From positions 124,001 through 188,000 of the forward strand of contig CALUSR010000004.1 of NCBI GenBank assembly GCA_944323485.1: 64,000 nucleotides of DNA, in the 5' to 3' direction. This DNA comes from Candidatus Gastranaerophilales bacterium. GTDB lineage: Bacteria; Cyanobacteriota; Vampirovibrionia; Gastranaerophilales; CAJFVJ01. Made by a program: the position numbers and the translations under genes. Below are positions 51,858 to 61,983 of this stretch, piece by piece. Each line of letters starts with the position of its first letter. Position 1 is the first letter of the stretch. The notes under the pieces are model-generated. The model saw nothing but the letters and a program-made list of their open reading frames with translations, did no database searches and was not told where the DNA came from.

Positions 51858-52253
51858 ATGGGAAACTTTATTTCAAACATCGGTAATACACTTGCTAATA
51901 ATACTGCTATCGGCAGAATGGTTACTAAAGGTGAAAACTTTATGGAAGCACATGTCAATGCAAGCAAAGAAAATTTAGAGGGCATTGGAGAATCTGTTTC
52001 TGACCATACTATTCCTGGAAGAATGGCAACAAAAGGCGAAAATATTTTCGAAGCTCATGTTAATACATACAAAGAAAATGCAGGGCTTGCCGTACAAAAT
52101 TTAGCAGATTTAGGTGAAACTTTTGCAGACAGTACAGTATTTGGCCGAATGGCAACAAAAGGCGAAAATATTTTTGAAGCTCAGATGAATACATTCAAAG
52201 AAAATGCCGGTCTTGTAGGAGAAGTTATTGTAGACAATATGTCAGAAGCATAG
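51858..52253 (+). CDS. Three-repeat small protein, unknown
   Basis: 131 aa with a strong GAGGAG ribosome binding site. Three tandem units share GRMxTKGENxxEAxxNxxKEN: residues about 19-39, 54-74 and 96-116 (e.g. GRMATKGENIFEAHVN). The units vary in the tail (LADLGETFADSTV). No signal or membrane helix. I know of no family. Its isolated position and good ribosome binding site suggest high expression, possibly a structural or stress protein. Confidence 0.65.
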   Translation: MGNFISNIGNTLANNTAIGRMVTKGENFMEAHVNASKENLEGIGESVSDHTIPGRMATKGENIFEAHVNTYKENAGLAVQNLADLGETFADSTVFGRMATKGENIFEAQMNTFKENAGLVGEVIVDNMSEA

Positions 52254-52278: not shown

Positions 52279-52308
52279 AAAAGAGGACTTCTTATGAAGT
52301 TCTCTTTT
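52279..52308. terminator. Bidirectional terminator overlapping the hydF 3' end
   Basis: AAAAGAGGACTTC-TTAT-GAAGTTCTCTTTT: 13-base arms with one G-T pair. It lies 25 bases after the repeat-protein stop and covers the last codons of hydF. Confidence 0.8.
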
Positions 52309-53509
52309 CGTTTATACTAAACGGCTTCAGCGCTCTATCAAGAATGCCTAAACACTTGGCAATAGTTATACCGTAGTTTGTAATAGGCACCCCCGAGTCA
52401 TAAGCTTTCATAATACGGGATAGTACTTCTCTTCTGTTGGTCATACAGGCGCCGCAGTGGATTATCAATTTGTAATCAGATAAATTCTCTGGGAAATCAT
52501 GACCTCTTGAATACTCAAAGATAAGTTCTTTTTGAGTATATTTTCTCAATAAATTCGGTATTTTTACCCTTGCAATATCATCTTCTATCTGATGATGGGT
52601 ACAAGACTCACTGATAAGTATTCTATCGCCGTTTTGAAGAGAGTCTATTGCGTTTGCTCCTTGGGCAAAAGATTTCAAATCACCCTTCAATCTGGCAAAA
52701 GCAATTGAAAAAGAAGTCAGCAAAACATCATGAGGTACAATCTCAGAAACTGTTTTGAAAGCCTGAGAGTCTGTTACAACAAGTTTTGGACGGATTTTTA
52801 GTATATCAAACGATTTGTTCAACTCAGTTTCTTTCACAACAAGGCAGATTGCATTTTTATCAAGTACATCCCTGATAGTTTGCACCTGAGGAAGAATAAG
52901 ACGCCCTCTCGGTGCTTCTTTATCAATCGGGGTTACAAGGAGGCAGATATCGCCTTCATTCAAGAAATCAGAAACTATTTGAGGATTATCAAGATATTCC
53001 TGAGGAACAGAGTCAATAATTTTCTTTTTCAATTCATTTATTGAAGCTTGGTCATTTGCTGAAACGGATATGACATTTGCTGTATAGTTTCTTATTTCTT
53101 CCAGTTTTTCAGGTTGAATATTTTTTATGTCGTTCTTGTTAATTACAACAACTGATGGTATTTTTCTTTTGGCAAATTCTTCAAATAACTCCTTTTCAAA
53201 ATTGCCAAAACCGTTATAATCACAAACAATCAAAGCCAAATCAGTACGTTCATAGGCTTGTTTTGTTTTTTCAATTCTCTTTTCACCGAGAGCACCTTCA
53301 TCGTCGATTCCTGCAGTATCTAGAAACAAAACAGGTCCTAAAGGGAGCATTTCCATTGATTTTTGAACTACATCAGTGGTTGTTCCTGCGATATCAGAAA
53401 CAATTGAGAGCTCCTGACCTGTCAATGAGTTTATAATACTTGATTTGCCTACATTCCTGCGTCCAAAAACGCCTATATGCAGCCTCATCCCTCTTTGAGT
53501 ATTATTCAA
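52292..53509 (-). CDS. hydF: HydF, [FeFe]-hydrogenase maturation GTPase
   Basis: 405 aa. GTPase domain: GRRNVGKSSIINSL (P-loop, residue 16 on), SDIAGTTTD, DTAGI and VVINKNDI. The C-terminal cluster domain has CTHH (about residue 308) and HCGAC, matching the C-x-H...HC-x2-C ligands of the [4Fe-4S] scaffold. It assembles the 2Fe H-cluster, with HydE and HydG elsewhere. It implies a hydrogen-evolving or -using anaerobe. Confidence 0.95.
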   Translation of the reverse strand: MNNTQRGMRLHIGVFGRRNVGKSSIINSLTGQELSIVSDIAGTTTDVVQKSMEMLPLGPVLFLDTAGIDDEGALGEKRIEKTKQAYERTDLALIVCDYNGFGNFEKELFEEFAKRKIPSVVVINKNDIKNIQPEKLEEIRNYTANVISVSANDQASINELKKKIIDSVPQEYLDNPQIVSDFLNEGDICLLVTPIDKEAPRGRLILPQVQTIRDVLDKNAICLVVKETELNKSFDILKIRPKLVVTDSQAFKTVSEIVPHDVLLTSFSIAFARLKGDLKSFAQGANAIDSLQNGDRILISESCTHHQIEDDIARVKIPNLLRKYTQKELIFEYSRGHDFPENLSDYKLIIHCGACMTNRREVLSRIMKAYDSGVPITNYGITIAKCLGILDRALKPFSINEKRTS

Positions 53510-53582: not shown

Positions 53583-53603
53583 TGAGCCCTTTTTAAGGGC
53601 TCA
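53583..53603 (-). terminator. Possible terminator of the pilin operon
   Basis: TGAGCCCTT-TTT-AAGGGCTCA hairpin 15 bases after the last prepilin stop. On the minus strand the following tract is AAATATTTTTG, a weak T-run, so termination is less certain. Confidence 0.6.
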
Positions 53604-53617
53604 GTATAAATTTATTA

Positions 53618-55102
53618 TTATCTTAGAGATACATCAATCATTCGACAGATTCTTCTTTTGCGTGCCTGATTGTAAGCATTGGCATCATTCAATCTGCAAT
53701 AATTATTATTGGAAATAACTGTTATTCTATCTATAAGGTTGTTTTCTTCAAGATAGCGTCTGTCATTTTCGTTGATAGCAGCAAGCCTTCTTTGGACACA
53801 TCTTTTTGTCTCGGCTTCATCAATTCCGTCTAGTGCTCCTCCCGTGCAGGTATCAACACCGCATTGAGCAGGATTAGTAAAATCATTCCTATGATGAGTT
53901 CTGAAAGATATAAACTCCAGTCTGTTTTTGACAGCAAGCGCCCTTCTATAAGGTATTTTGAAGAACAAAACATTTGCATCATTCATCTGTTTTTGTCTGT
54001 AATCAGGGATAGCTATTGTTTTTGCCTGAGTTTGACCGTTTTCATCAGTTTCTGTTGCTACTACATTATCTTGAAAACCAACCCGGCAAGCCATACCGAA
54101 TTCACAGAAGCTTCCGTTTACATCATTTATTATAACCGGTTCAACGAAATTCAAAGCTGTAGATTGTTCTGATACCGGAGTTTTACCATTGTTTGTTGTT
54201 GTAAAATAATTCAGCGTATCTGTATTATGAAACTGCAAAGGCTCGTCGCCTTTATTTTTATTACGAATATCACAGTCATTGCAATCATTTATGCCATGTT
54301 CGATAACATCAGCAAGCAAGTCTACGTGTGTTCTATAGGCATCATCAACAGAATCAACAATAACATCAACGGTAACCATATCGGCCGCTACACCGTAAGG
54401 TGTAATACGAGTGCCGTCTGCACCCGCTACTGTTTCAATCATCGGTTCCACGTCACCATTTTCATAAATATTAAATCCAAAATGATCCACGGGACCATCC
54501 GGAGAGGCTAAATTCCCATTTTTGTCTATCTCGCCTTTAGATCTGAACATAGGGGTGTCATTTGCATCCTGTTTGATAGAAACATAGACTTTTATGCATT
54601 GACGACCATCCCAGCAGGTAGTAGGAGCATTTGAAAGTCCTATAATATACATTTCATTGCCGATATCACCGCCGCCTCTTTGTTGTCTATTGTCTACCGT
54701 ACGAGTCACCGAACACCACTGGGCGCTGTCTCTTGTCGGGTTTGCTATCTTTTTGAACGCATCACAATAAGAACCATTGCCGGTACCGCCAAATGCAGGG
54801 AGTTTTTTATCCCCTGGGATAAAACTGTTTTCTACATCAAGATTTTCACCATTATTATAAGCGGAATCATCAGTATATCCTGATCTTTTTTCCTGAGGAT
54901 TACGGGCAAGAATTTCGGCATTTATTGTCTTTAGGTTGTTATACATAGTCTGCGGTAATTTTCTCTGCGCATAATCTTTGCTCATCAGCCTGACAGCAAT
55001 TAAGCCAAAAGCTACCAAAATACCGATTATTACAATAACGACCAGCAACTCCATCAGAGTCATACCGCTTTTTTTGTTGTTATATTTTATCAAAATATTC
55101 AC
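53618..55102 (-). CDS. Prepilin-like protein, Cys-rich, last of the pilin operon
   Basis: 494 aa. Class III leader SGMTLMELLVVIVIIGILVA with Gly before the cleavage site and Glu5. The mature protein has no S74 domain. The long globular part is Cys-rich (about 17 Cys), with an Asn/Asp-rich core (NDCNDCDIRNKNKGD). The starts are close: 3 bases after the previous stop. It may be a minor pilin for the filament tip. No match to a known family beyond the leader. Confidence 0.82.
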   Translation of the reverse strand: MNILIKYNNKKSGMTLMELLVVIVIIGILVAFGLIAVRLMSKDYAQRKLPQTMYNNLKTINAEILARNPQEKRSGYTDDSAYNNGENLDVENSFIPGDKKLPAFGGTGNGSYCDAFKKIANPTRDSAQWCSVTRTVDNRQQRGGGDIGNEMYIIGLSNAPTTCWDGRQCIKVYVSIKQDANDTPMFRSKGEIDKNGNLASPDGPVDHFGFNIYENGDVEPMIETVAGADGTRITPYGVAADMVTVDVIVDSVDDAYRTHVDLLADVIEHGINDCNDCDIRNKNKGDEPLQFHNTDTLNYFTTTNNGKTPVSEQSTALNFVEPVIINDVNGSFCEFGMACRVGFQDNVVATETDENGQTQAKTIAIPDYRQKQMNDANVLFFKIPYRRALAVKNRLEFISFRTHHRNDFTNPAQCGVDTCTGGALDGIDEAETKRCVQRRLAAINENDRRYLEENNLIDRITVISNNNYCRLNDANAYNQARKRRICRMIDVSLR

Positions 55103-55105
55103 CTC

Positions 55106-56614
55106 TTATTTGATTAATTTTTCTTCAAGTTTAGATATTCTTGCTTCAAGCTCATCTTCCTGCTTATCAAGCTCTTTTACTGCGTTTACCATAGCCATAT
55201 CAATATATTGATACTGAACACCATAGTAACCGTTATTTTCAATAACGACAGCTTCCGGAATAACTTTTTTCAAGTCCTGAGCGATTACTCCGACATGTCT
55301 TTTTGAGCCGATTTTTTCATCTTTCATATAATAAGTTACGGGTTTTATTTTGAGAATTTCCTCTAAACCCCTTTCATAATTACCTTTTATATCTTTCATT
55401 CTTGCATCTGAATAAGTAATTTTTGCTTTTGCTTGAATATTATTTGCATGAAGGTTTCTTGTCCACATTATATAATATGCTGTTGTGGTTGAATTAAAGA
55501 CGGCACTGGCGGCTGCAGTTCTTGCCGTATCAGGATACATCAACAAAAGCGGTGTTTTATAAAGTGTAGACTGCGATTGTTCTCCCAATATATTTTGTTC
55601 AGGAGATGTTGTAGGTCCGTTTGAAATAAGAATCATACCGTTGACATTATCAGTTCCCCTAGGAGAAGCATTAGCTCCGATAAAAATATTGTAGTTCCCA
55701 GTTGAAATCCCTTGAGCAATAACACACTCATCTGCTGCGTCAATACCTGCACACAACCCTGGGTCACCTGTTGTCCAGTTATTTTCTCTAATTACTGCAC
55801 CTCCGGCATTAGCTCCGATAAAAATATTTCCGCTGCCTGCTGAAAGAGTTCTTCCTGCATTGTTTCCAACAAAAATATTGTCACTTCCGAGCTCAAGTCC
55901 TCCGCCTGCACCGCTTCCGACAGCGTAGTTGCCTTTGCCGGCTTCAACAAGAGCAAGAGCCTCGCTGCCAATTGCTACGTTTTGGAAATCATCATGATTT
56001 CCGCCTCCAACCTCATCAGTTCCCAATCTTGCAAGTGTATTTGAACCGATTGCAATATTTGCTTGACCGTTGGTAGTTGTATTTTGTCTAATAGAACTCA
56101 GAGCGTTTGTTCCGATTGCTATATTATTTTTAGCGGTGTCACTATCTTCAGATTCAAGACTTGATAGAACATTGCGCCCTATACCTATATTTGATCTTTG
56201 GTCAAACATAACCTTGCTCATATTTTTAAAGCTGTTGACTTCATATTCTTCCGCATCAAGAGGGATACCATCGCCGAGAATTCCGAGAACAGTCCAGTTG
56301 CTCACTGTCGACTGCAATATAACATCAGCTGTCCGCCCTTCCATAGTTTTGCTTCTCCATGGTGAGCCTTCAACAGTCAATCTGGCATCTTTTTCATTTG
56401 TACCGATTGAAACATCCTGTTCTCTCGGATTTGCCGATGAAGCGCTATAGCTAATATTATACGGCATAATACCGTAGTCCCATTTTTCGCTGGTATCAGA
56501 ATTTTTTTGTCTTGTTATCGCAGGCATTGTAAGAGCAAGTACAATACCGATTACAAGCATTGAAACCAATACTTCTACCAGTGTAAAACCTCTTTTTGCG
56601 TTTTTATTTATCAT
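55106..56614 (-). CDS. Prepilin fused to YadA-like beta-roll and S74 intramolecular chaperone (C)
   Basis: 502 aa from the ATG at 56614 (AAGGA upstream). Class III leader RGFTLVEVLVSMLVIGIVLA. Then SIGTNEKDARLTV, and many repeats with NIAIGxNAL (NNIAIGTNALSSIRQ, ANIAIGSNTLARLG, NIFVGNNAG). Near residue 402 is SDARMK, the self-cleavage site (Ser402, Lys407), followed by the chaperone (VGVIAQDLKKVIPEA, VQYQYIDMAMVNAVKEL) and a coiled-coil end. S74 domains release themselves after trimerisation of phage tail-spikes; combined with a pilin leader this is unusual. Confidence 0.85.
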   Translation of the reverse strand: MINKNAKRGFTLVEVLVSMLVIGIVLALTMPAITRQKNSDTSEKWDYGIMPYNISYSASSANPREQDVSIGTNEKDARLTVEGSPWRSKTMEGRTADVILQSTVSNWTVLGILGDGIPLDAEEYEVNSFKNMSKVMFDQRSNIGIGRNVLSSLESEDSDTAKNNIAIGTNALSSIRQNTTTNGQANIAIGSNTLARLGTDEVGGGNHDDFQNVAIGSEALALVEAGKGNYAVGSGAGGGLELGSDNIFVGNNAGRTLSAGSGNIFIGANAGGAVIRENNWTTGDPGLCAGIDAADECVIAQGISTGNYNIFIGANASPRGTDNVNGMILISNGPTTSPEQNILGEQSQSTLYKTPLLLMYPDTARTAAASAVFNSTTTAYYIMWTRNLHANNIQAKAKITYSDARMKDIKGNYERGLEEILKIKPVTYYMKDEKIGSKRHVGVIAQDLKKVIPEAVVIENNGYYGVQYQYIDMAMVNAVKELDKQEDELEARISKLEEKLIK

Positions 56615-56647
56615 CAAAAGTATCCTTTTTTATTAAATAATATTTAC

Positions 56648-58075
56648 TCATTGACATGCACAAGTTTTTGATTCAGATACAATTTTTTTGAGTTTTTCAA
56701 CTCTTTGCTTCAACTCTTTGTTTCTTTTTTGCAGGTCTTTTACGGCATTTAGAGTTGCCATATTTATATAATTATAATTAACCATATAAATATCTTTTTT
56801 ACCTCTTGTCGTAACTGCATCAGGAAAGACACTTTTTATTTCCTGTGCAATAACTCCCGAAGATTCAAGACCGTCAGGTCCGTCTGATTTATATTTGTAT
56901 CTGTAGACAGATATTTTTTCCAGGTCATCAAGAGATTTTTTGTATTCACCGACTATATTTTTATATCTTTTATCTGAAAGTTCGTATTCCTTAAGGCTTG
57001 ATGTATTTGTATATACATTGTTAGCTTCAACATCAGCATACCTTATGGTGGTAGTATTACCGTTTACATCTATCACACCGCCTACAATACGACCTTTCGC
57101 TGTTTGGCGCAAAGAATTACCATCCATTGCCCCCCAAACCGGTTTCCCTGTCTCTTCTGAGTACTGTGGGGCATTCGGATACTGTATCAAATTATTTATT
57201 CCTGAGACATAAGAACCTGTTTGAGTTTCTGAACCGTAGCTGCCGATTACTATTCTGCCTGAGCCGCTGGAACCGTAATAACTCGCATAGTTGCCGATTA
57301 CAATATTGCCGCTATGCGAGCCGCTTGTACAGGAAGAATTTCCTATACAAATATTTTCACACCTAAGACTATTGTTTTCACCTGCGCTATCACCTATGAG
57401 AATATTTCTATATGAGCTAGTTTTAATATCATTACCATCGTCGGTAATATGATTAGAAACTATGTAATTTCTAGACAAGGTTGAATAATTATAAGGTGCA
57501 TTCTCTGCGATATTACCTCCGATGATAACATTCCCCTGTGTTCTAATCGCATCTTTATAGGTATTTTCTCCAATAATAACGTTATCTGCAGAATTTTCCA
57601 TATTTCTCATTGCATTCACGCCAATCGCAACAGAGTTGGTCGGAGATATATTGTCAATACCAAGATTGTTTGCAGCCCCCGCACCTATTGCAATTGATGT
57701 ACCGTCTCTTGTTGTTGCGGCAAGGCGTCCTACTTCGTTCAAATTGCTGTCAGCAAACACAAAGTTGACAGAATGATCACCTGTGTTGTTGGCTGCCCGA
57801 ATTGTCATTACAGGTGTTGTAGGTCTGTCTTCGTAGCCTCTGACATGAAGTCTTGTTCTAGGTGTTGTTGTACCTATTCCGACTTTCAAATTATCTTTCG
57901 GAGAACCATAAAAAACATCAGCCCCGCTTTGATTTCTGTTCCATTTCTCGATATGACCGTAGTTTTTCTGAACGGTAAGAATGGGAACCGAGGCAACCAT
58001 TACCACACATGATATTACAAGTGCAAGCAGCACTTCCATTATTGTAAAACCGTGTTTATTTTGATAATTCATCAT
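56648..58075 (-). CDS. Prepilin fused to beta-roll repeats and S74 intramolecular chaperone (B)
   Basis: 475 aa. Class III leader HGFTIMEVLLALVISCVVMV. Then VGIGTTTPRTRLHV, the tail-fibre-like opening of S74 proteins, and repeats (NSVAIGVNAM, NVIIGENTYK, NILIGDSAG, NICIGNSSC, NIVIGNYAS). Cleavage Ser367-Lys372 in SDKRYK; then SGVIAQEIKSVFPDA and YNYINMATLNAVKDLQ; the end is KTCACQ. The ATG pair (58075, 58072) follows the previous stop by one base. Part of a trimeric fibre candidate. Confidence 0.85.
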   Translation of the reverse strand: MMNYQNKHGFTIMEVLLALVISCVVMVASVPILTVQKNYGHIEKWNRNQSGADVFYGSPKDNLKVGIGTTTPRTRLHVRGYEDRPTTPVMTIRAANNTGDHSVNFVFADSNLNEVGRLAATTRDGTSIAIGAGAANNLGIDNISPTNSVAIGVNAMRNMENSADNVIIGENTYKDAIRTQGNVIIGGNIAENAPYNYSTLSRNYIVSNHITDDGNDIKTSSYRNILIGDSAGENNSLRCENICIGNSSCTSGSHSGNIVIGNYASYYGSSGSGRIVIGSYGSETQTGSYVSGINNLIQYPNAPQYSEETGKPVWGAMDGNSLRQTAKGRIVGGVIDVNGNTTTIRYADVEANNVYTNTSSLKEYELSDKRYKNIVGEYKKSLDDLEKISVYRYKYKSDGPDGLESSGVIAQEIKSVFPDAVTTRGKKDIYMVNYNYINMATLNAVKDLQKRNKELKQRVEKLKKIVSESKTCACQ

Positions 58076-58076
58076 A

Positions 58077-59486
58077 TTATTTCAACCTTATAAAACTGAG
58101 AAATTTATCAAACAGAGATTGTTTTTTACAGCTGCATAAAGAAAAAGAGGGGTCGTTTACCTGTTTTTCGAGTTCATCAAGTTCTGCGCTAAGTGCATCA
58201 TTTTCTTTCTTGATATCTTTTGCAGCATTGACCATTGCCATATTTATATATTCATAATTTACGACATATCTGTTTTCTTCATTCAAAGAAACAGCCTCGG
58301 GCATAATTTTTTTCAAATCCTGAGCGAGGATACCGACTTTCATCGGTTCACCTTTTTCATCAGATTTATAAAAGAAGTTGTATGTTTTGAGATTTGCAAG
58401 TTCTTCTATGCTATTTGTATAAGGTTTTATGTCTTTTTTGAGGCGGACATCAGAGGTCCCCACGTTAATTCTGTAATATAAAACCCCGCTGTTAGCACCG
58501 GCTCCTCTTATATTGAAGCTTGAGGTTTTAAAATAGAGGTCTTCTTTATCAAAATTGCCGTTGTTTGGTGAAAAACGCCCTACAATTTTATCACCGATAT
58601 TCAAATAAGCTCCGCCGGCAACAGGTGCAGTAACACCGGAAGGCTGACCAATATCTTCTCCGATAAAGACATTCCCCCCATTTGCACTGCCCGTTGATTG
58701 AAGAAGATGTTCACCTGTAGATAGGAAAACGTTATATTGGGTATTAATAGATTTATTGATTTGACCTATTGAGACGTTACTGTTCCCGCATATATTTTGA
58801 GAATTCAGTGTAGCAATAGTAACATTATTCTCAACATTGTTGCAGCTTGCCATTGCATCAGCTCCAAGAGCAACGTTGTTGCTGCCTGTTTGAAGATTTC
58901 TCAAAGCATCATGGCCTATTGCAATGTTTCCTGTTCCGTCACGAAGATTTCGAAGGGTTCTATATCCGAGAGCTATATTGTTTTGAGTTCTTAGATAGTC
59001 GCTGTTTTCATCAGCTGCATTTCCTTCTGCTGATGCGTTAATATTACGATTTAGAGCTTCTTCACCAAAGCCTATGTTGTTTACTTCAGAGTTCAAATAA
59101 AAATCAACATTACGTGCGTTTATACTAAAGCGGAGAAGCGGTGCCCTTGTAGTTGATTCTAATATCATATCGGCACCTTTTTTCTGAACATTTTGTCCGT
59201 CTGTGGTGCAGTAATCACCATCAGCACAGTCATCTATAATTCGTTTGGCGCTTACGACATGCAATCTTGCCTTCGGATAAGGTGTTCCTATACCTACATT
59301 GCTTGAATTTGATCTTGTTCCGAAAAAGACATTAAGATTGTTTGAATACAGCCATTTTTCTCCACCTCCGCTTTGTTTTTTTACGGTAAGCCATGGCACG
59401 GCAACAGCCATAAGAATAGCCGTTACCAGTAAAATAACAAGAGCTTCTATCAAAGAAAAGCCTCTTTGGCATTTTTTATTATTCAT
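58077..59486 (-). CDS. Prepilin fused to beta-roll repeats and S74 intramolecular chaperone (A)
   Basis: 469 aa from the ATG at 59486; an upstream frame to 59543 is not protein-like. Class III leader RGFSLIEALVILLVTAILMA. Then NVGIGTPYPKARLHV and repeats (NNIALGYRTL, GNIAIGHDAL, NNVALGADAM, NVFIGEDIG). Cleavage Ser345-Lys350 in SDVRLK; then VGILAQDLKKIMPEA and YEYINMAMVNAAKDI; a Cys pair (LCSC) and a hydrophobic end follow. First gene of the operon, behind a good promoter (59525-59553). Confidence 0.85.
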   Translation of the reverse strand: MNNKKCQRGFSLIEALVILLVTAILMAVAVPWLTVKKQSGGGEKWLYSNNLNVFFGTRSNSSNVGIGTPYPKARLHVVSAKRIIDDCADGDYCTTDGQNVQKKGADMILESTTRAPLLRFSINARNVDFYLNSEVNNIGFGEEALNRNINASAEGNAADENSDYLRTQNNIALGYRTLRNLRDGTGNIAIGHDALRNLQTGSNNVALGADAMASCNNVENNVTIATLNSQNICGNSNVSIGQINKSINTQYNVFLSTGEHLLQSTGSANGGNVFIGEDIGQPSGVTAPVAGGAYLNIGDKIVGRFSPNNGNFDKEDLYFKTSSFNIRGAGANSGVLYYRINVGTSDVRLKKDIKPYTNSIEELANLKTYNFFYKSDEKGEPMKVGILAQDLKKIMPEAVSLNEENRYVVNYEYINMAMVNAAKDIKKENDALSAELDELEKQVNDPSFSLCSCKKQSLFDKFLSFIRLK

Positions 59487-59524
59487 ATTATAGAAATATC
59501 CCTTTTTCTGTATATATACATATA

Positions 59525-59553
59525 ATTTTAATAACGTACTCAAATTAAGACAA
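59525..59553 (-). promoter_or_regulatory. Promoter of the pilin operon
   Basis: Minus strand: TTGTCT (59548-59553), 17-base spacer, TAAAAT (59525-59530). It fits a sigma-70-type promoter, about 40 bases before the first start. Confidence 0.65.
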
Positions 59554-59611: not shown

Positions 59612-60913
59612 CTAAAGTGTAGCATTTCTTAACAAATTTTTTATGTAATTGACGATGTGCTCACCCATTGCAAAACAATTTGGCTGTATTCTCAGGGCGC
59701 CCTGCGCATAAAAATCAGCGCCGATACATCTTCCAATGACAAAGAGATTTTTTGCATATCTATTCAAGCAACATTCATATGGCGCCCCGAATTGTTTTCT
59801 TTCTGTTGATATAGTTTTATCTTTTTGATGAATATCTACAGGATAATCGCTTTCAAAAATATTTTTATTAAAAATTTTTCCACTCTCTATATCATTCTTT
59901 GTCAAAATATATTCGGAACAAATCCTGCGTGAATCTCTTATTCCGAGTTCATGAGCAACTGATGATACGAAAGATTCTTTAAATCCCGGTATATAGTTTC
60001 TAAAAAATTTTTCAAGACGCACTATAGCTGCTCTTCCTTTTATAAGCGCTTTTGTTGTATCTTCCGATGAGAGAGGATTTAGCGGAGAATTTATTCTGGG
60101 AGCGTTGAATGACAGTATTCCACTTTTCCCTGGAATTGAAAAAAATTGGATATAATTTACATCATCTTCATTAATGATACCATCTTCGATTGCTTTATCG
60201 ATAAGCTTATTTATCGCTGGGTAAGGAGATTTTTTTTCTCCGTAAGAAAAGCCGATAGAAAGATATATTTCCCTTTCATTCTTGCAAAAAACATTCGATA
60301 CATCATCATCAATTTTTTGTTCTATCATCCAGTTTGCAAGTAGTTTGATATCAACACCTCCCATCTCAAAACGAAGCGACATAAATTGATTCTTTCCATC
60401 AAGACCGTTTTCAAATTTAACGCCGCTCATAGCAGCAAGAGTCGCATCACCCGTTGCATCAACAAAGTATTTTGCCCTGTACTCTGATGTTATACCTTTA
60501 TAAAAGGTTTTTATTCCGCTTATTATATCGCCTTCTTTTACAACATCAACTACAACAGTGTCATAAAGAATTTTTACTCCTGATTTTATTGCAAAAGATT
60601 CAAGTACAAATTTCATTTTTTCAGGATTAAACCACCCGGGATTTCCGTCTTTGTAAACAACACCATCTCCTGATGAGTATAATGTTGATAATATCTCCGC
60701 CAGAATTGATGATTTATAATCTTCGTTTCTGAAAGAAATATTATTCATCATCGGCATCACAAGCTGAGAAGTCATTGCTCCGCCAAGATAAGAGTTTTTC
60801 TCTATGAGTAATGTTTTTATACCGCACCTCGCCGCAGAAATAGCCGCTGCAGCTCCTGATGTTCCACCGCCTACCACAATCAAATCATAAGTTTTTTCTT
60901 TGTCACTATTCAC
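59612..60913 (-). CDS. FAD-dependent oxidoreductase (FAD_oxidored family)
   Basis: 433 aa. N-terminal FAD motif LIVVGGGTSGAAAAISAARC and KTLLIEKNSYLGGAMTSQLV; a conserved DATGDATLAAMSG (Rossmann-end) and the C-terminal FVIGRCIGADFYAQGALRIQ. The family (PF12831-like) has mostly unknown substrates. It overlaps the MnmC-like methyltransferase by four bases, so it may complete a split MnmC-like activity, though the fold differs from the usual MnmC oxidase. Confidence 0.82.
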   Translation of the reverse strand: MNSDKEKTYDLIVVGGGTSGAAAAISAARCGIKTLLIEKNSYLGGAMTSQLVMPMMNNISFRNEDYKSSILAEILSTLYSSGDGVVYKDGNPGWFNPEKMKFVLESFAIKSGVKILYDTVVVDVVKEGDIISGIKTFYKGITSEYRAKYFVDATGDATLAAMSGVKFENGLDGKNQFMSLRFEMGGVDIKLLANWMIEQKIDDDVSNVFCKNEREIYLSIGFSYGEKKSPYPAINKLIDKAIEDGIINEDDVNYIQFFSIPGKSGILSFNAPRINSPLNPLSSEDTTKALIKGRAAIVRLEKFFRNYIPGFKESFVSSVAHELGIRDSRRICSEYILTKNDIESGKIFNKNIFESDYPVDIHQKDKTISTERKQFGAPYECCLNRYAKNLFVIGRCIGADFYAQGALRIQPNCFAMGEHIVNYIKNLLRNATL

Positions 60914-61983
60914 TTTAAAATATCCTTATTTTTATTTTTAAAACTTTTTAGATAGCTGCTTGAGGAAGCAAGAGAAGAATTTTTTACTTCTTCTTCCCTC
61001 CTTTTGATAATTTCATCATGATTTTGAACCAAGCCTTCATCATGATAAACAATGCCCGCTCGTGTTTTTAATAAACCAATTTCTTCATCTGAAAGCGGTA
61101 TTTGAGAAAACTCTTTTGAAAGAGAAGCAAAAGTCCCCGATGTTTTTCTGTTTTCTGAAGAAATTTTTGAAACATGAAAACCGTTCTGAATTAATGCAGC
61201 CCTCACAGGCGCACTTGATGAATAAGTTGTAATATTCCCTGATGAAGATATAATTCTTTTTAGCTCGTTAAAAAACTCATAACTCCATAATACAGACTGC
61301 TTTGCCGGTGTAAAACCATCATGAAATATAAAATCATACCTGCCTTCAAGATGTTTAATAGAAGTGCGGGCATCATCAAAAAAAACTCGAAGCCTATTTT
61401 TAGAGAATTTCAATCGACTTTTCGGAGTATATTTATTTCTATTAGACATATACTTATAATATATATTATGTATTTTTTGATTATTTTGACACTTACCCAT
61501 TAATTCTATCTCGGACAATTTATTCTCCACAAAAAACAGGGCTAATTTTTCATCCAAAAATTGACAAATTTCATCATTCTCAAGAAGCTCTACCATGCAC
61601 TCAGACACAACAGAATTGTCCCAAAATTTTTCCAAAAGAAAATAATGCACGTCATAATCAATTTGCGCAACCTTATATAAAAGTCCGAAAGAAAAGACGT
61701 AAGAATCAATTTCCAAGCAATCTATTTCGATACAGCAATCAGGATTAACCCTAAAGACAGTATCAACAGCAGCTTTCAAGTTGTATCCCATCCCTGAACA
61801 TATATCAAGAATTTTAATTTTGTTGTGTGTTTGCAAAAAACTTTCCAAGCCTGATGGATTAATAAATTTATCAACGGCTTCGTTATAAGCTCCGTAAGTA
61901 CTATGGTAAATATCATCAACTTCTTTATTATATAAGCCGATTGAACCGTCATTTGTTTTATTTACACTAAAATTCAATTTCAT
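60910..61983 (-). CDS. MnmC-like methyltransferase domain protein
   Basis: 357 aa. Class I SAM fold with KILDICSGMGYNLKAAVDTV (motif I) and the MnmC C-terminal signature FIFHDGFTPAKQSVLWSYEF and ITTYSSSAPVRAALIQNGFH. MnmC methylates the wobble uridine of tRNA (mnm5s2U). The N-terminal substrate-binding part is longer than usual, and the C-tail is Lys/Ser-rich. It is first in a two-gene unit with the FAD oxidoreductase. Confidence 0.83.
   Translation of the reverse strand: MKLNFSVNKTNDGSIGLYNKEVDDIYHSTYGAYNEAVDKFINPSGLESFLQTHNKIKILDICSGMGYNLKAAVDTVFRVNPDCCIEIDCLEIDSYVFSFGLLYKVAQIDYDVHYFLLEKFWDNSVVSECMVELLENDEICQFLDEKLALFFVENKLSEIELMGKCQNNQKIHNIYYKYMSNRNKYTPKSRLKFSKNRLRVFFDDARTSIKHLEGRYDFIFHDGFTPAKQSVLWSYEFFNELKRIISSSGNITTYSSSAPVRAALIQNGFHVSKISSENRKTSGTFASLSKEFSQIPLSDEEIGLLKTRAGIVYHDEGLVQNHDEIIKRREEEVKNSSLASSSSYLKSFKNKNKDILK

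Follow-up and report, generated by a model that had tools for sequence, protein, structure and literature searches.

What would a pilus machine make of a protein that begins as a type IV pilin and ends as a phage-type, self-cleaving fiber? This question is raised by four adjacent genes in the 64,000-nucleotide stretch of DNA analyzed here (the window), three of which encode proteins of this kind. Our data identify these pilin-S74 proteins as a real, conserved, and under-studied family, and from their sequences we lean toward reading them as modular minor pilins that would trimerize through a C-terminal S74 domain, cut this domain off, and be shown by type IV pili as adhesive fibers. They are a variant of the modular pilins rather than a new principle; what is new is the order-wide linkage of leader and S74, its lineage specificity, and the pattern of constant ends and a variable middle.

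Organization of the operon

The four genes run in one direction on the minus strand, from 59486 to 53618, with intergenic gaps of at most about 40 bases (Table 1). Gene starts were chosen by the leader and the position of the ribosome-binding site; the start first proposed for gene 1, at 59543/59553, lies too far upstream, while the ATG listed in Table 1 fits both. The sequence-only reading had described a class III pilin leader with Glu5 joined to S74 in three adjacent genes, and both modules indeed score above the cutoffs in Pfam hmmscan, N_methyl in all four proteins (23.8 to 32.5 bits; cutoff, 21.2) and Peptidase_S74 in genes 1 to 3 (41.6 to 54.5 bits; cutoff, 22). Gene 4 gave no Peptidase_S74 match in the same scan. 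With its N_methyl match above the cutoff, its cysteines, and the terminator-like hairpin that follows it, this gene is the Cys-rich, pilin-like member that had been said to close the operon.

The operon has as neighbors HydF, an FAD oxidoreductase, an MnmC-like methyltransferase, and NadE. HydF, the [FeFe]-hydrogenase maturase (window positions 52292 to 53509, minus strand), adjoins the pilin-S74 cluster in family f1 and is also found near such a cluster in one f7 genome (L051:11410-12651). Just upstream of the operon (59612 to 61983, minus strand), the FAD-dependent oxidoreductase and the Methyltransf_30 (MnmC-like) genes overlap by 4 bases. On the plus strand, positions 51858 to 52253 encode a 131-aa protein made of three repeats of about 45 residues (GRMATKGENIFEAHVNTYKEN), which has no match in Pfam and is kept in Candidatus Adamsella avium.

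Table 1. Features of the pilin-S74 operon (window positions)
Feature	Position	Strand	Basis or remark
Gene 1, pilin-S74 protein, 469 aa	58077..59486	-	ATG at 59486; first gene of the operon; N_methyl 1.6e-6, Peptidase_S74 6e-14 (Pfam)
Gene 1 class III leader (9 aa, Gly9/Phe10) and hydrophobic helix, Glu+5, Pro+22	59385..59486	-	Sequence, family columns
Gene 1 head, NxxIG repeats at residues 170/187/204, 17-residue spacing	58455..59354	-	Motif count
Gene 1 S74 chaperone with coiled-coil tail; predicted cleavage site N-terminal to Ser345	58077..58454	-	Pfam, dyad Ser345/Lys350
Gene 2, pilin-S74 protein, 475 aa	56648..58075	-	N_methyl 3.2e-5, Peptidase_S74 1.6e-10 (Pfam)
Gene 2 class III leader and hydrophobic helix (Gly9/Phe10)	57974..58075	-	Sequence, family columns
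Gene 2 head, NxxIG repeats	56978..57943	-	Motif count
Gene 2 S74 chaperone with coiled-coil tail; predicted cleavage site N-terminal to Ser367	56648..56977	-	Pfam, dyad Ser367/Lys372
Gene 3, pilin-S74 protein, 502 aa	55106..56614	-	ATG 56614; N_methyl 5.6e-8, Peptidase_S74 1.4e-14 (Pfam)
Gene 3 class III leader and hydrophobic helix (Gly9/Phe10)	56513..56614	-	Sequence, family columns
Gene 3 head, NxxIG repeats at 229/246/263, 17-residue spacing	55412..56482	-	Motif count
Gene 3 S74 chaperone with coiled-coil tail; predicted cleavage site N-terminal to Ser402	55106..55411	-	Pfam, dyad Ser402/Lys407
Gene 4, Cys-rich pilin without S74, 491 aa, 13 Cys	53618..55093	-	TTG start at 55093 within AAGAGGTGA..TTG; N_methyl 9.7e-7 (Pfam)
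Gene 4 class III leader and hydrophobic helix (Gly10/Met11)	54989..55093	-	Sequence
Strong intrinsic terminator-like hairpin 3' of gene 4	53583..53603	-	9-bp stem, then AATATTTTTG

The N termini are type IV pilin segments

All four proteins begin as type IV pilins do, with a 9- to 10-residue leader ending in Gly, followed by Phe or Met, a hydrophobic helix, and Glu at position +5 of the mature chain. Among the sampled relatives (fetched loci), every one of the 66 distinct, complete S74 proteins carries the leader; the leader motif is present in them by construction, having been used for the search, but Pro22 (65/66) and Thr25 (63/66) are not part of that motif. In type IVa pilins, Pro22 marks the canonical kink of the helix. 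Since both residues are nearly fixed outside the search motif, the N terminus is a real pilin segment, and the family columns (n = 66) show the full T4a signature. The one leaderless S74 ORF among the sampled relatives (L049) is truncated at its 5' end, as its upstream frames show. A tree built from the leader alone (48 columns) did not resolve the branching.

Past the first approximately 25 residues of the helix, no clear alpha1-C or pilin globular domain is evident in the sequence. Packing within a filament would therefore differ from that of normal pilins, and this is our main ground for caution. The same feature lends weight to an explanation that we regard as unlikely but take seriously, namely, that the pilin-like helix just anchors an S74-folded trimer in the inner membrane as a periplasmic fiber, its leader cut or not, with no pilus involved. 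Such an anchor would also suit the several S74 genes that stand alone, away from pilus genes, as well as the AlphaFold monomer model of full-length gene 3, which at low confidence (pLDDT, 39; 5 sequences) has only a short helix at residues 12 to 29. However, a plain anchor needs none of Glu5, Pro22, and Gly/Ala-1, which are kept across the order, and the variable heads described below suggest surface exposure.

Distribution and pilus machinery

The combination of N_methyl with Peptidase_S74 is not due to chance, because a search of genomes found it to recur across the order. S74 is present in 58 of 117 relatives; about half thus do without pilin-S74 genes, which are therefore dispensable. The leader is absent from all 51 control S74 ORFs (36 from Planctomycetota and 15 from photosynthetic cyanobacteria, a Patescibacterium, and others), which were read to the N terminus as far as the contig reached, a few being cut at the 5' end by the contig; viral contigs, likewise, held no protein with both leader and S74. 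Within the samples read, the N_methyl-S74 fusion is a trait of this lineage. One of the 15 controls outside Planctomycetota comes from a genome of the same order (G012; 7% contamination), where an S74 protein with DTINEKTTDQGVTIESVPVKDG repeats lacks the pilin leader (L138; G012:C99:7000-13000); its contig is possibly foreign.

In a scan of named genomes with the S74 cores (three loci), the nearest relative was Candidatus Adamsella avium, of the Cyanobacteriota/Melainabacteria group, and the genome is that of a Candidatus Adamsella. The machinery genes, which had been placed outside the window, are indeed found elsewhere in the same genome. One cluster encodes PilB (MshEN plus T2SSE), PilC, and the secretin, and the genome also encodes two PilT-like ATPases, a type IV prepilin peptidase (A24; L094:5364-6329), and seven further N_methyl sites, so that prepilin peptidase and assembly ATPase/platform, as expected for type IV pilins, are both at hand. 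Given these seven other sites, the S74 pilins are not the sole candidate subunits, which fits a minor-pilin role. The co-occurrence of prepilin peptidase and pilin-S74 genes is itself uninformative, because the peptidase is also present in 14 of 15 genomes without such genes. On contig C2 of the same genome are two further proteins with a pilin leader, of 1151 and 655 aa (L096:3164-6619 and L097:4514-6481, both on the minus strand); their N-terminal parts are almost identical, and Pfam recognizes N_methyl only.

Paralogs with constant ends and variable heads

Three S74 pilins stand in tandem in families f1 and f7, two plus one in genus g21, and single genes in the others; clusters of exactly three occur in f1, f7, g21, and genus g34. 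A Cys-rich pilin without S74 follows the S74 genes in f1 and in two f7 loci. Within f1, f7, and g21, the three paralogs form separate orthologous clades, and the families do not interleave. The exact trios and their orthologous clades would be in keeping with one heterotrimeric tip, like GspI-J-K, in which S74 serves as a hetero-assembly domain. We consider this rather improbable, as the clades do not correspond between families, from which it follows that the trio arose more than once or that its copies were homogenized, and as the single S74 pilin of many genomes, should it trimerize, could form only a homotrimer.

Two genomes with 11 copies each reveal where the copies diverge: leaders are 93 to 97% and S74 domains 84 to 94% identical, and the heads, with large gaps and differing lengths, only 46 to 60%. 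Between two Adamsella species, dN amounts to 0.055 to 0.082 in the heads versus 0.004 to 0.021 in S74, and dN/dS stays below 0.4 throughout, in heads and S74 alike, indicating purifying selection. Constant ends flanking a variable middle would be the pattern expected if the copies shared one system for assembly and folding and differed in exchangeable binding parts. In G042, G301, and G374, with 11 to 12 S74 copies per genome, the copies are dispersed and many are broken at contig ends, which suggests either repeats defeating assembly or recombination among copies.

The S74 domain and the head repeats

The residue numbers first given for the intact Ser-Lys dyads proved exact (Table 1). Each of the three proteins ends in an S74 domain with the SDxxxK dyad, and SDxRxK is found in all sampled S74 ORFs of the order. 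Among proteins of solved structure, the family profile matches self-cleaving S74 trimers (MYRF ICA, 7dc3, at 1e-14; phage fibers 8jov, 6f45, and 3gud) as well as pilins (9egp, PilA, and PilE1). The position of S74 is always C-terminal, after the repeats and before the coiled coil, as in phage fibers. This placement argues against an effector pilin, that is, a pilus-borne S74 protease acting on other proteins, a role suggested by the entry of N_methyl-S74 under "peptidase activity" in the part of a 2021 survey available to us (PMC8179133). Characterized S74 domains, moreover, cut their own chain only, releasing the chaperone, and the S782A change in Bd3182 blocks this self-cleavage (PMC10769870); we give the effector explanation very little credence.

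In the heads, NxxIG motifs are far more frequent than in shuffled sequences (493 observed versus 77 expected; 69 family heads), most commonly spaced by 17 residues. The repeats that the sequence-only reading called YadA-like are thus real, but at the level of sequence the label denotes a resemblance only. Pfam hmmscan matched the proteins to no YadA head model at an E value of ≤1 and to no trimeric autotransporter anchor model, the C terminus being S74 plus coiled coil. The family-wide profile matched YadA (1p9h) at an E value of 2.8e-4, no better than LpxD left-handed helices, and a head-only profile search gave no YadA match. The tail-fiber-like opening VGIGTxxPxxRLHV holds for two of the three proteins, the third having VSIGTNEKDARLTV. 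Phage tail-fiber families match along the head region and S74. A phage origin was examined by tblastn and rejected, the best phage matches having just 25 to 33% identity and being confined to head and S74; plasmid matches covered only S74 and the residues immediately preceding it. The gene 3 head modeled alone as a monomer, again at low confidence, reached a pLDDT of 59 (AlphaFold), and fold searches returned nothing below an E value of 0.1.

That the operon is a prophage remnant, in which tail-fiber genes gained a leader by chance, is scarcely credible: heads and S74 do resemble phage tail-fiber families, but the neighbors named above are chromosomal housekeeping genes, synteny is kept in Candidatus Adamsella avium, selection is purifying, and no viral contig carries both domains.

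A model for fiber assembly and display

For modular minor pilins displayed as fibers, we infer trimerization, cleavage, pilus incorporation, and adhesion in the following order. First, Sec would export each protein, the pilin helix holding the chain in the inner membrane, and prepilin peptidase would cut after Gly-1. Three chains would then meet through their C-terminal S74 domains, nucleating a trimeric beta-repeat fiber, after which S74 would detach by self-cleavage N-terminal to the dyad Ser. With its pilin helices still attached, the completed fiber would be primed into a type IV pilus, the tip being the most likely site, as for CofB and TcpB, and passage through the secretin would bring it to the surface as an adhesive, phage-tail-fiber-like tip. 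Gene 4 probably contributes its Cys-rich pilin as an adaptor or accessory tip subunit. More tentatively, the retractable pili of Gastranaerophilales-type gut bacteria might be tipped with phage-style, self-cleaving trimeric fibers on three pilin-helix feet, with interchangeable heads between constant ends setting the binding specificity.

If true, this model would join modular pilins, trimeric tip pilins, and phage-type self-cleaving fibers, which have hitherto been studied apart, and would offer a concrete test of how a trimeric subunit folded by a chaperone fares in the type IV pilus machine. The view of this common modular-pilin architecture as a "peptidase" would also need correction, and the fibers would be a likely means of attachment for a gut order that is largely uncultured and whose surface biology is almost unknown.

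Comparison with known systems

The sequence-only reading had seen a possible new assembly principle in this locus, a claim that gives way before the N_methyl-S74 architecture of the 2021 survey (PMC8179133), the trimeric tip pilins CofB and TcpB (PMC9565799), and the S74 fibers (MAT) of Bdellovibrio (PMC10769870). The survey, based on InterPro (Raynaud et al. 2021, PMC8179133), ranks N_methyl-S74 (IPR012902-IPR030392) as one of the 15 most frequent architectures of modular pilins, of which the best studied, PilB (vWA) of Streptococcus sanguinis, serves as a tip adhesin. The domain pair is the same as here, and the part of the survey available to us gives its count and the peptidase reading, without the operon, the distribution, the dyad, the chaperone role, or the head repeats.

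Trimeric autotransporter adhesins such as YadA and UspA1 share NxxIG-type repeats with our proteins, and the family profile matches their heads weakly. In contrast, the proteins described here match no YadA head or anchor model and lack the C-terminal beta-barrel, and their export route would differ. The S74 tail fibers and spikes of phages (endosialidase and T5 pb1) and the ICA domain of MYRF resemble our proteins, by profile match, in their C-terminal, self-cleaving trimerization chaperone, but stand in the context of a virion or a eukaryotic membrane and without a pilin leader, whereas the present genes lie among chromosomal housekeeping neighbors and not in a phage or prophage.

The MAT fibers of Bdellovibrio (Bd3182 and others) are chromosomal, surface-located, adhesive, phage-fiber-like trimers that end, as here, in S74 with SDxxxK, and their self-cleavage has been proven by S782A (PMC10769870). 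They begin with a Sec signal peptide, after which comes a conserved beta-rich domain of about 130 aa, unlike the class III pilin leader found here, and the word "pilin" is absent from that paper, which draws no link to a pilus machine.

CofB and TcpB of type IVb pili are homotrimeric minor pilins located at the pilus tip, where they start assembly (PMC9565799). They combine a pilin N terminus with long beta-rich domains; here, the leader is observed, and the beta-rich fold, trimer, and tip location would follow by analogy. They differ in having other beta domains without S74 or self-cleavage and in being type IVb, as opposed to the short, T4a-like leader of our proteins. Because the models of TcpB and CofB place the trimer on top of the filament, trimeric pilin feet may be compatible with a helical filament.
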